Assembly: GCA_037783545.1 (NCBI GenBank)
Contig: JBBELK010000329.1
Span: 1,006,501-1,070,500 of the forward strand
Reading direction: 5' to 3'
Length of the DNA stretch: 64,000 nucleotides
Origin: Henricia sp. BOLD:AAB3569
Taxonomy: Eukaryota; Echinodermata; Asteroidea; Spinulosida; Echinasteridae
Below the pieces are notes generated by a model that was not told where the DNA came from, did no database searches, and was given only the letters and a program-made list of their open reading frames with translations. Below, piece after piece: positions 49,901 through 55,900 of this stretch (position 1 is its first letter; each line of letters starts with the position of its first letter). A program made the position numbers and the translations under genes.

Positions 49901-52900
49901 TCTGTGTACAAAAATTTTAGGACTCGGGTAACCAAAATGGCGATCTTCTTTTTGGCTACCTGAACCTTAGACTGGTCCCCTGTCCATGTGCACTACGCTG
50001 CTCTCGCTATACAAGGACAGGCACACGCCGAGCAATAACCACGGGTGATTGGCCGTTGTATTACCACGCGTGATTGGTCGTTGTATTAAATATATGCATG
50101 ATCTATTTTTAGAGTTCGCAACTGTTAATTTTGTCGCTGGGTTTTGCATATCTTATTCAATCTTTGCCATCCCTTATAATTATTTAGTAATTTTGGCAGT
50201 GGTGTACTCGTCAACGCCCAGGTTTGTACTGATACATTACTTTTTACTTGAAATGGCGCTGTTTGCCGTATTTTTAAGCCGCCAAACATCAATATCACAG
50301 TGCGGCCGTTGTTCAAAAAAAGTTTTTCATCGCATAAAAAAACTCGACAAAACATGACAGAAACTCCATCGAATGATATGAATGACATGGTTTGATATAG
50401 AGCTATTTGTTTAACCTTGATTCCCACCGAAACCAGTATGTTTATTTGGTTCTGACAGCAATTTTACAGGCATATCTTCTGCTGTCGATGCAAAAATACT
50501 GCTGCTGCCGCCGCTGTAATTTTCCCAGACATTAAATATGCGTAGCGCGCGCGATGCCAAATCGAACGAAGACGCGTAACACGCTGTATTCTGGGCGCCT
50601 GCTTGGCGCTTGCGCAAACCGTGACACAGTCCTTTTAATTTGCATAAACATCCAGGAATTCCTGGATATTTATGCCAAACATGGCGGCGTGTACCTGTCC
50701 TCATATACGACGGAGGGGAAGTAAATATGTGGACAAGGGAACCAGTCTACCTGAACCTGAGGCTGTGATCGGTCAATTCCAAAATGGGCGGAGCCTACTG
50801 GATCGGTCTATTGTGTGAATTCTGAGTTTAAAATCAAAGGACCCAAGATTAAAGGGGCTATGTAACGGTTTGCGCATGCGCCAAATCCTTTCATATTTTG
50901 ACATACGTGCGGGCTCAGATGAATGTAGTGCAATTTCGTTACACAACGCTATTGGTGCGTGTGCTGTAGTTGTGTACATCGTGTACTTAGCACGTGCCGC
51001 ATGGGCAGTGTGTTCGTTCATGAGTGTTTACAATACGCAGAATTCAACTACATTGTGCATCGTGTGCGCGCATTTGTTCGATTTGGCATCGCGCGCGCGC
51101 GCGCGCAATTGCGCATTTAATGTCTGGAAAAAAAAAATCGTACAGCGGTGATGGCCACTGTGTCTTTCCAAGGACAGAAGGTATGCTGTAAAATTGCTGT
51201 CAGGACCAAATAAGCATTACAGTTTTGATGGGAAACAAGGTTAAGTAAATTGCTGTATCTAACCATGTCATTCATATCATTCGATGCCATTTCTGTCATG
51301 TTTTGTCGAGTTTTTTGATGGGATGAAAAAACTCTCTTTTTAACGACGGCCGTACACACGGTGATGTCGATGTTTGGCGGCTTAAAAATACGGCAAACAG
51401 TGCGATTCCAAGTAAAAAGTAATGCATTAGGACATCCTGGACGTTGACAAGTACACCACTGCCAAAATTACTAAAGAATTATAAGGGATGGCAAAGATTG
51501 AATAGGATATGCAAAACCTGGCGACAAAACTTGAAAAAGTTAGCCACACTTTTTCAAGTTTTGCTGCGCATGCGCAAACCGTGACATAGTGCCTTTAAGC
51601 CTTTGGGCGTGTTTGTTTCGGACGGATCCAGATTCAGATCGGCGCATTACCAAGGTGAACTCGTTCACTTCGCGCACATCCTGATCGAGATCTGTGATCT
51701 GTGGAATCCTTCTCGAGAGATGGTTCAGCGCTAGATCCAAAATGGCAACGTAAACATCGTGGAGATTTTGTGTGAGTAAAACCGTGTCGTTTCAGTTTTC
51801 AGAGGCAACACACGATACAAAAAATTTAGAATGCTTGTTTATTTACGACGAATGTCGATTGTCGTGGGAGAAATTTGGAACAGAAATTTGACAAATTTGG
51901 TAAATAAATTGCAATTCACGTGATTTGAGATCTGAGTTGAGAGCGGTTTCGTTTGTTTCTGCGCGGTAAAACAGATCGGAATCTGGATTCGGATCTGTCA
52001 TGAAACAAACACGCCCTTCGTCAACCTGGGGCCAACTTCATGGCGCTGTTAAATTTGCTTAGCACATAATTTCTTTGCTTTATATTTCACAAATGAGTTG
52101 CCAGCCAAAATTGTATGTAATGTTTATTTACTGATATAATGCTATGTTTCTAAAGCACAATTTACAAACCAAAGAAATTTTAAGCTGAGAAAATTTGTGT
52201 GCTCAACAGCGCCATGAAATTGGCCTTGATCTTTCTTCAGTGAATTAAGTCTTCACCTCGCCATTTCTTGCTGAAATCGTCCTCCGAGCCAATCATCCAT
52301 GTCCTTGTACACTTCCTCTGACTTAGCTTTTAGATCCTGAAGAACCGAGATGGCGTGGATCTTGATCAGTTCCATTCGGAGCTTCAGTCCATTCTCTAGA
52401 AACACAACAAATTATTTGCATAGTTTCCATGTTATGAGAAGATTTGAACTTAGGCTGGATCCGAATTAGTGGCTTTGGCTGTGGCTAGGCTGTTTCTAAG
52501 GACTGTCATTGTCCACCCATAGCAACAGCATAGCAACAGCCATAGCCACAGCCAATACCACTAATTCGGATCCAGCCTTAGTTACTATTTCATCACATTT
52601 GCCCACCACCCACTGTACTATTGGCAACAAAGTCGTGTGTGTTGGCAAGAGAGTTTATAAACTAACCGTACCTTCGTGCGAGATTGCCGCAAGATATTCT
52701 TGTTTCATGCGATCTCTCAATTCCTTCTTAGCTTTCTCTTCAGGAGTGTCTTCTGTTGCTGAAAGGTGAAATAATCAGGGGGAGGGAACAATGAATCAAA
52801 AACATATTGGGTTAGCTACTGCTTGTAAGAAAATGCCAACATTCACCACTGGTTCAGCACTCGTCTATAGACTAATCCAACGGACGAAAACTGCGGTGTA

Positions 52901-55900
52901 TCTCCAATGCATTTACGTGACGTCACAATAGACACCGCAGTAACAATGGAATTACCACAAGCGGGCGGGCTCACTAAATGTTATTCGGATTACACTATAG
53001 AAAGCTGGGAACTGGCTGTTGAAATGCAGCCCTGAGGCCAATTTCATGGAGATGTTACTTGTTTATTTATATACCACATCCAACAGCGGAGGGACCGCCA
53101 ATTACAGGAATGGGAGCAAGTGTGGTTGAGTGCCTTGCTCAAGGGCACAGGTGCCACAACCCGTCATGGCCAGGAATCGAACCTACATTCTAGTACTAGC
53201 ACAGGAACTTAAGTTCGACGCACTAGACCGCTCGGCCATAACACCCCACGTACAGATATTTGCTAAACACAAAGTATATTTAAGAAGTAACTATAAATAA
53301 ATAGTAGTAAACTTGCGGGTACAACCATGTGAAAAATCGGCTCTTTTCAGAGCCAACACTACTCCAAAAAGAGATTTTTCACATGGTTGTACCCGCAAGT
53401 TTACTACTATTTATTTATAGTTACTTCTTACTTTCAACACCATGCAAAGCTTCAAACACCACTTACAAAGTATATTTGTTTTGCAAAAATGGGTTACTGG
53501 CCAAAATTGTATGTGATGTGTATAACGACTGACTGGTATTCTGTTACTGTTGCTAAGAATACAAGATCTTTTTTTTTTAGGTTGGTAACCCAATAAATTT
53601 TGTGCTACTTAAATGTTCATGCTTGAACAGCTCCATGAAACTGGTCCTTGTTGCTGCTTATAAAAAACTTGAATTAGATTAATCATACCAGGCGGTGGGG
53701 TCGGCGGAGGGGTTGGAGTGGCCGTTTTCTTGCCTTTCTTGGGTGACTTTTTGCCCCCTGGTGATTTCTTTCCCCCAGATGGTGACTTTCTACCGCCACT
53801 GGGTGACCGTTTGCCTGACGGTGATTTGCTCTTACTTGGCTTCTTGCCAAGTTTTTTATTAGCGGCTGCCGCTTTGTCTTTTTCTTTGTCTCGTTCTGCT
53901 TCTCTCAGTTTCTCAGCTTCGTCTTCCGCATCCCGGGCTGCCAACTCCGCAGCCGTCTGTTAGACATCAAACAAATTGTCATCCAAAATTATATTTCACA
54001 AACCTATATACCTTAATCACGGTACTGCTATCTTGATCTTGTTCCCGATACGTGTCCTGGAAGATTGTGCACCTGCACGACTGTGAAATTGTCCATTTTA
54101 GCAAAAGAATCTATCTGCGCTGCGCGTTTACTTAATTGCACTGCGCGTGTGTCATTGTGAAGCACACAAAACGGTTTCATAAAACGGGGCCAAACTATTT
54201 TTCGGCAAGCCTCGCTTTGGTTACGTTGTTTTTAATAGGGAAAAGGGAAATGGCCGCACCGTGATAAAGGTCTATAATTAAGCAGACAGCCAAGATTTTT
54301 TGACATTTTACAAGGCAGAAATTATTTGTTCACAATTAACGACAAGCTCCAAAATCAAGGTCGGAGTAAATCAAGTCTTTTAAACTATGTACAAAGGGGA
54401 ACATTAGCTAGTGGAATGTAAAGGGTGTTGGAGGAAGGAATTTATGGGGGAGCAATTCTGATTTGTGGATGAGATGTTCAAATCTTTACTTACAATTTCT
54501 GAAATCTTTACAATTCCAAACTGAAAGGCGTCCGAGATCAGCTGAAAAGATATTAAAAACATTGAAGTCATTCGCTATTTCTCACTGGCAACATTTTAAT
54601 TTCCGTTCTCAAATGGTGCATTTCACTACAACAAAGGTATTTTTTGTGTTTGTTCCTCCGTTTTTTGCTTGTAACTGTTTTTGTGACGTGTAATAGACAC
54701 CACTGCAGCCCTGAAATACACTACTCACAATCACTCTCCTAATGACTGTTTTCACCTATTCCTGTGACAAGATGTGTCTGCCAATCATATACAAATTCAT
54801 TCAAGCAGAATGCATACCCTTAATAAAATAATCTGCGTACACCCCACAATATCCCTAACTTATTGTGAGTAGTGTAAGTTAAACATTAAGATAAGCAGAA
54901 ATTTAGTTCTTATACTATCCAAAGGAACTAATTTTTGGTTGGGGTTTAAATACATCAAAATTACACCAAATCACAAATAATAATTACGCGGTACCAATTT
55001 AGAGATTATAACCCAAGTACCCAACTATCTTCATTTAGGTATTAACAAATTTAAAGTTAAAACTGTAAAATCATGTGAGGACACTTACTAACTGCATTTG
55101 TGACAAACGTGTAACAGATTCGACTGTCTCGCTGACATAAAACCCTACCTTCTCATCATTATCTGCCGGTGGCAGGGGGCTTTCCTGAGTCTCCTCCGAG
55201 CTAGCGGCAGGTGCCGGTTTGTCTTTTTCCTTCTTCCCTCCTCGACTCTTGCCACCTTTCTCTGCCTTTCCTGCCGGAGTTTGGCTTGGGAAGAAACCCT
55301 CAGTTGAGGTGGGTCGGCGTGGCACCAGTGGAATCCTGAACAAAACCACAAATACAATTTGGGACAAGTTTGGACAGATAATGTTCTCTAAGTGCATGAA
55401 ACATGTCAAAGCAATTCCCTTTCCTTTGTGACAAAAAATGGCAGAGAAATCAAAGTGTATAAAAGCTGTATTCCTGAAGGCTTTCATATTTTTAATTTTA
55501 GCAGTAATTTTTAAACCCCTGAATTATGTGGCCCATTTTCCACGCAGTATAGCCAAGGAATCGGCCACGCAGTATAGCCAAGGAATCAGCCTAAATTGGA
55601 CTGCAGCTGTGCACAATTTTTTGTGACCATGAACACAGTTTTTCATTGTTGTCTTGGAACTTGGATGAGGTACTCAGCTTACTTTAATATACACAGGTTT
55701 GTTTTGAACACATCCTCAATCACAAATGGAAATAACACCGTTTGTAACAGTTTTCCAATCCTGTAATCAATCTCTAACCCTAACACTCCTCAATCCTCCA
55801 AAATCAATATAATTTTACATACACCCTAGGGAGTTCTTAGGGTTAGGACATACTTCGGTTTCTCCTCCTCAGCATCTTCCTTTGTTTCCTCCGGGGGCGG

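Follow-up and report, generated by a model that had tools for sequence, protein, structure and literature searches.

A perfect palindrome around a histone-type 3′ stem-loop, located in a 64,000-nt stretch of the Henricia sp. genome (hereafter the window), is a 5′-truncated insertion of a Penelope-like element (PLE). It consists of two head-to-head pLTR cDNAs, one of which carries a 34-nt tail, within a 12- to 13-bp target-site duplication. Comparison among copies indicates that the stem-loop belongs to the pLTR and is a conserved part of the element. We consider it probable that in these PLEs the stem-loop, together with the element downstream of it, is a working histone-type (SLBP/U7) 3′-end signal.

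The Palindromic Unit

The arms of the palindrome (53281–53338 and 53373–53430) are each 58 nt long, are 100% complementary, and lie 34 nt apart; complementarity stops abruptly at their outer ends. The unit has a folding energy of −99.3 kcal/mol (z = −20.8), which is mostly due to the arms. Read along the plus strand, it is preceded by the left target-site duplication ACAAAGTATATT (53269–53280), an exact match to the right flank at 53465–53476(77), with the T at 53281 as a 13th matching base. The left pLTR cDNA (53281–53338, minus strand) is inverted and is identical (100%) to positions 133–76 of the pLTR reference. It forms the left palindrome arm and is a "short" end, one whose start is the inner reverse transcriptase (RT) start site. 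The two cDNAs join at 53334–53338 with an overlap of a few bases (AAATC vs. AAACC in the element), the reference (37–168) aligning from 53334 and the inverted reference (76–133) reaching 53338.

The right pLTR cDNA (53339–53464, plus strand) matches the 3′ end of another genomic copy, L003, at 99.2% identity over 53334–53465. It begins with the histone-type stem-loop GGCTCTTTTCAGAGCC (53339–53354), which lies on the PLE sense strand, is detected both by pattern and by Rfam, and has a position common to other pLTRs. Ten nucleotides after the stem-loop, the sequence reads CAAAAAGAGA (53365–53374, plus strand), resembling a histone downstream element. The right arm follows and then the 34-nt tail (53431–53464), which contains the PLE start codon ATG at 53442–53444; in copy L053 the same sequence runs on into the RT-EN reading frame. 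The right target-site duplication (53465–53476) is a copy of the left flank. The right arm is simply the element continuing 3′ of the stem-loop; the left arm is the same stretch in a second, inverted copy. In a first-pass annotation of this DNA, arms, stem-loop, and the AAAAAGAGA downstream were described correctly, but arm and stem-loop are not independent features.

The window contains a single match to the stem-loop pattern GGYYYTTTTCAGRRCC, and none of 100 shuffles contains any. An Rfam search of the 64 kb places Histone3 (RF00032) at 53334–53379 on the plus strand with 35 bits (cut-off 34; E = 2e-06), the sole match above the gathering score, and the unit has the 6-bp stem and 4-nt loop of the histone type. 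When the window was searched by tblastn with five typed histone queries, the best match reached only E = 0.6; the earlier statement that no histone coding sequence lies near the stem-loop stands. The overlapping gene had been named SPEF2, an identity that was not confirmed, two window ORFs being without a Pfam family over the cut-off.

Perfect palindromes are typical assembly or sequencing errors, and the unit could in principle be one. Against this, 34 nt separate the end of the left arm from the start of the right one, the unit sits within a target-site duplication, and other contigs contain equivalent units whose junctions and duplications differ. On these grounds an assembly artefact is rejected as highly improbable.

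Elsewhere in the window, a further inverted repeat (52447–52487 and 52543–52583; 41 nt, 93% complementary, 55 nt apart) is present, and a AACAGCGCCATGAAATTGGCC-like motif recurs in both orientations from 52030 to 53644. By eye, a tRNA-like stretch (GGTTCGATTCC) lies on the minus strand at ∼53130–53245 and is perhaps part of a SINE; ARAGORN reports no tRNA within the window.

Element Identity and Origin of the Palindrome

All copies and counts reported here come from the single genome that contains the window (G000, 740.7 Mb). A 170-nt query from the unit has at least 96 matches there, self and arm-only matches included, and many of them span the region from the stem-loop to 53440, mostly at 94–99% identity. 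The first eight loci (L001–L008) are without a histone match. Part of 20 larger stretches contain RT-EN reading frames between such ends. One of these (L047) has an 864-aa open frame matching RVT_1 (PF00078, E = 1.7e-10); another (L046) matches both RVT_1 (E = 1.2e-10) and, C-terminal to the RT, GIY-YIG (PF01541, E = 3.2e-06, residues 619–659). The L047 frame gives no Pfam GIY-YIG match at E up to 1, though a similar stretch is present in its letters. No relative of the RT-EN protein was confirmed in viral contigs. The suggestion that the palindrome is a mobile unit is borne out, in the form of a Penelope-like insertion with a target-site duplication.

The pLTR extends from an upstream hairpin to TTCTTA, and the next 34 nt include the ATG of the ORF; by analogy, these 34 nt match in kind the known PLE "tail." The pLTRs are in direct order in L053 and inverted in 16 pairs. 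These pairs emerged from the ends of 25 sources, 9 of which had no inverted pair (L043 and L044 are the same in sequence). Flanking matches of 12–14 nt accompany 15 of the 16 inverted pairs, L047 being the exception, whereas cross-pair controls have a mean match of 4.4 nt and reach ≥10 nt in only 3 of 240 cases. All 15 well-flanked pairs (the window, L002, L004, L005, L006, and members of L039–L058) combine one tail end with one short end, as if two RT start sites were each used once per insertion. A compound pLTR module, GAAACGT followed by the stem-loop and GAGAT, occurs at 362 places genome-wide and at none in a reversed control; among the first 100 of these places, neighbors <5 kb apart are in minus-then-plus order in 13 of 15 cases.

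With 12- to 14-nt flanking matches at 15 of the 16 inverted pairs, the palindrome is ordinary PLE architecture. According to a study of the purified PLE protein PAc of Anolis, both strands are cut and extended, and reverse transcription starts at two internal sites of the RNA, the tail being the interval between them (PMC11167929). Penelope of the rotifer Adineta vaga is described as having inverted pLTRs with junction palindromes, mostly head-to-head (PMC3846280). In this respect the finding is known biology. Two ideas of the first-pass annotation find no support here: that the stem-loop is an orphan, and that a long hairpin carries it at its tip. Double priming yields the arms as a by-product, and the junctions differ between insertions.

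A DNA transposon or MITE with terminal inverted repeats would likewise be short, near-symmetric, and flanked by a duplication. The ends of the unit are unlike, however: only one has a tail. Copies differ in arm length and junction, and some of them contain RT-EN. We reject this explanation, to which we give practically no chance.

Conservation of the Stem-Loop in Two Families

Two PLE families were compared. For the family of the window unit (family 1), 46 places with an exact downstream anchor were sampled from the 25 sources. The exact 16-nt stem-loop is present in 40, has one change in 2, and is absent from 4. The first-pass annotation had named arm copies lacking the stem-loop as evidence against its reading; this is partly the case, at these four places (L047, L058, and the inverted arms in the window and in L006), and the cause is junction truncation or deletion. 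The A-run before GAGA varies in length among family-1 pLTR copies and is very long in one copy of L056.

Family 2 comprises more distant copies recovered in RT-EN searches, with 54–64% protein identity in the 14 for which 3′ stretches were fetched. Seven of these stretches contain exact GGTTCTTTTCAGAACC. In L061 one base differs but the stem still pairs, in L069 the loop is changed, and in L068 and L067 the stem-loop is damaged or truncated; in three (L062, L066, and L071) no module was found. The first eight family-2 stretches, fetched with their RT, have CAAATGAGA downstream, one base off the AAAAGAGA core. The family-2 stem-loop followed by AAAAGAGATTCACATGG, the form with AAAAGAGA, occurs at 129 places genome-wide (reversed control, 0).

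The stem-loop occupies the same place in both families, and there it is identical at 14 of 16 positions, with both differences in one compensatory pair (C-G vs. T-A). The downstream element is identical at 8 of 10 positions and the upstream hairpin at 34 of 42. Neighboring sequence is near random by comparison: identity is 0.41 from the stop codon to the hairpin (0.38 when shuffled) and 0.40 from TACC to ATG (0.37 when shuffled). Within the alignment, 97.8% of cells pair, and neither the covariation score nor the number of cells changed was reached in any of 500 shuffles. The number of pairs changed on both sides (2) was reached in 426 of 500 shuffles and that of further pair types (4) in 498 of 500, so that neither exceeds the shuffles. 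Because the contrast between families amounts to about one event per pair, the weight of the comparison lies on conservation against a randomized background. The conserved pLTR core also includes a second conserved hairpin, the upstream one, and a conserved CACATGGT..TACC stretch; a stricter pattern for the upstream hairpin alone has 256 genome-wide occurrences (control, 0).

Comparison with Host Histone Genes

Six stem-loops beside histone coding matches served as the host reference: H1 (L017 and L036), H3 (L037 and L077), H2B (L038), and H4 (L078). Their downstream elements start 9–11 nt after the stem, with AAAAGAGA in four and AAAAAGAT in two; more generally, histone genes of this genome have CAAAAAAGAGA or close variants at that distance. 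The spacing is 10 nt in family 1 and 9 nt in family 2, and the purine-rich PLE downstream element therefore sits at the spacing of host histone genes. RF00032 scores of PLE copies reach 42.4 bits (L029) and 40.5 bits (L074), compared with 38.7 bits for a histone array on contig C835 (24 sites among the matches listed). That array, at G000:C835:229000-478700, contains H3 and H4 in tandem steps of ∼4.1 kb.

PLE copies thus share with replication-dependent histone 3′ ends (RF00032 plus the U7-binding element) the 16-nt stem-loop, its flanks, the spacing, the downstream element, and an intronless frame upstream. They differ in that the upstream frame encodes a reverse transcriptase; in the window unit, histone coding sequence upstream is lacking at the same tblastn level (best E = 0.6). 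The PLE stop codon is farther away as well, 153 nt from the stem-loop in family 1 and 250 nt in family 2, whereas in C835 H4 the stem-loop match lies 33 nt after the coding match. In addition, the direct-repeat PLE copy has the signal in both pLTRs, the first of which has one base changed in L053.

A mobile unit that recently captured the 3′ end of a histone gene, keeping it as a functionless passenger, would explain the resemblance of the signal to an entire histone 3′ end. The first-pass annotation had suggested a captured histone end as one possibility, which the copies do not demonstrate. No histone coding trace is present in the window or in L001–L008, and the stem-loop has the same place in two families whose neighboring sequence is near random, unlike a recent passenger. 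By eye, several host histone signals are followed by a TGCCTGA-like stretch, which is missing from the PLE copies. Recent capture is rejected as very improbable; if the stem-loop was captured at all, this happened before the two families split.

A more serious alternative is that hairpin and A-rich GAGA stretch serve as RNA signals specific to PLEs, for example, for RT-EN recognition or RNA packaging, and resemble histone signals by convergence without being processed by the histone machinery. The stem-loop lies in the conserved pLTR core beside the conserved hairpin and the CACATGGT..TACC stretch, and together these could make up a single structure for recognition. A cut would take away the RT start sites, and the family-2 downstream element is often CAAATGAGA. 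Yet stem length, the TTTC loop, A/C-rich flanks, 9- to 11-nt spacing, and AAAAGAGA are all as in histone genes of the same genome, and Rfam Histone3 scores reach the level of real histone genes. We regard a PLE-specific signal as rather unlikely and a histone-type 3′-end signal as the best reading. The first-pass idea of a processing signal put to new use survives in this form, resting on sequence evidence.

Proposed Function

The evidence from sequence for histone-type 3′-end use by PLEs is good. In a tandem pLTR-ORF-pLTR transcript, the signal would follow the RT-EN stop codon at the 153- or 250-nt distance given above. While the tandem transcript is nascent, its stem-loop would be bound by SLBP and its downstream element by U7 snRNP. 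Histone-type cleavage takes place ∼5 nt after the stem-loop, which would be near 53359 in the window. The element mRNA formed in this way would have neither introns nor poly(A) and would be tied to S phase. Because the predicted cut is 5′ of the RT start sites, cleaved RNA alone cannot template a full copy; we infer that uncleaved read-through RNA, which would keep the downstream RT start sites, is the insertion template. Binding by SLBP and U7, cleavage, S-phase use, and the switch between mRNA and template would all be steps of this scheme.

Several observations bear on the proposal. In L047 and L061, the two copies examined for poly(A) signals, no AATAAA or ATTAAA lies between stop codon and tail, and the genome encodes an SLBP domain. 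An Rfam family search of the genome found no U7 snRNA, and the same search was without matches in control genomes too. A U7 pattern has 4 places in the genome and 3 in the reversed control, with folds and duplexes that are not convincing. Against the function, a cleaved RNA would no longer contain the RT start sites, and the hammerhead-like hairpin just upstream, if it cuts, would part the stem-loop from the ORF and mRNA. Our confidence is limited because U7 was not found, the distance from stop codon to stem-loop is long, 3 of 14 family-2 stretches are without the module, a hammerhead-like hairpin is present, and a single species is covered.

On balance, we give an even chance to the broader proposal that a PLE lineage has come under the histone mRNA 3′-end pathway. 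SLBP/U7 cleavage would then yield poly(A)-free S-phase mRNA and cut tandem transcripts into units, and RNAs that escape cleavage would be insertion templates. Cutting into units may be the task that the hammerhead ribozyme serves in other PLEs.

Relation to Known PLEs

The elements described here share many features with Penelope/Poseidon-type PLEs, as set out for PAc of Anolis (PMC11167929) and Penelope of Adineta vaga (PMC3846280). These include RT and GIY-YIG in one ORF, pLTRs, a start codon near the pLTR end, a tail of 30–40 nt at one of the inverted ends, palindromic junctions between inverted, head-to-head pLTRs, short target-site duplications, cleavage and extension of both strands, and two internal RT start sites. 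The word "histone" is absent from the main text of either paper. As reported for PAc, a hammerhead ribozyme lies at the pLTR–ORF junction (PMC11167929), whereas here there is only a hammerhead-like hairpin directly 5′ of the histone-type stem-loop.

Rfam reports no hammerhead among matches at E up to 1 for seven loci or up to 10 for L053. By eye, the hairpin resembles the hammerhead ribozymes of PLEs and retrozymes in the order CTGAAGA ... GAAACGT, in a middle stem that can pair, and in an outer stem for which both partners of the end pair differ from one family to the other. Relative to the hammerhead core, one extra C follows CTGAAGA.

Conservation of a histone-type 3′-end signal in Penelope-like pLTRs is apparently unreported: among papers listed by searches of the open-access PMC literature, none joins a PLE with a histone stem-loop in its title or the beginning of its abstract. 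Replication-dependent histone genes are the textbook case of metazoan mRNAs that lack poly(A). If the proposal is true, a retroelement family with the full signal would show that the histone 3′-end pathway can be borrowed, the 3′ end of the RNA would link retrotransposition to S phase, and PLE RNA biology would become testable via SLBP and U7. In genome annotation, Histone3 matches can mark retroelements.

Other Stem-Loop Sequences

The stem-loop followed by AAAAGAGA has 1354 sites genome-wide and none in a reversed control. The first 100 of these include PLE-type sequences and others, among them histone genes and a tandem array on contig C62. Canonical stem-loops with a CAAAAGAGA-like element and without a histone match also occur in multi-copy sequences (L009–L015; L018–L025 and L032–L035; L027, L028, L030, and L031). 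Pfam gave nothing over the cut-off for four ORFs beside such sequences, three from the multi-copy set and one from L026. The left boundary varies among some of the multi-copy sequences; L027/L028 and L030/L031 form inverted pairs ∼5 kb apart. By eye, L082–L084 and L089 may represent a further type of PLE pLTR, with stem-loop and AAAAGAGA. L090 is possibly another, in which the stem-loop and downstream element are followed by ATGCATAGCCT, resembling the start of the family-2 ORF.
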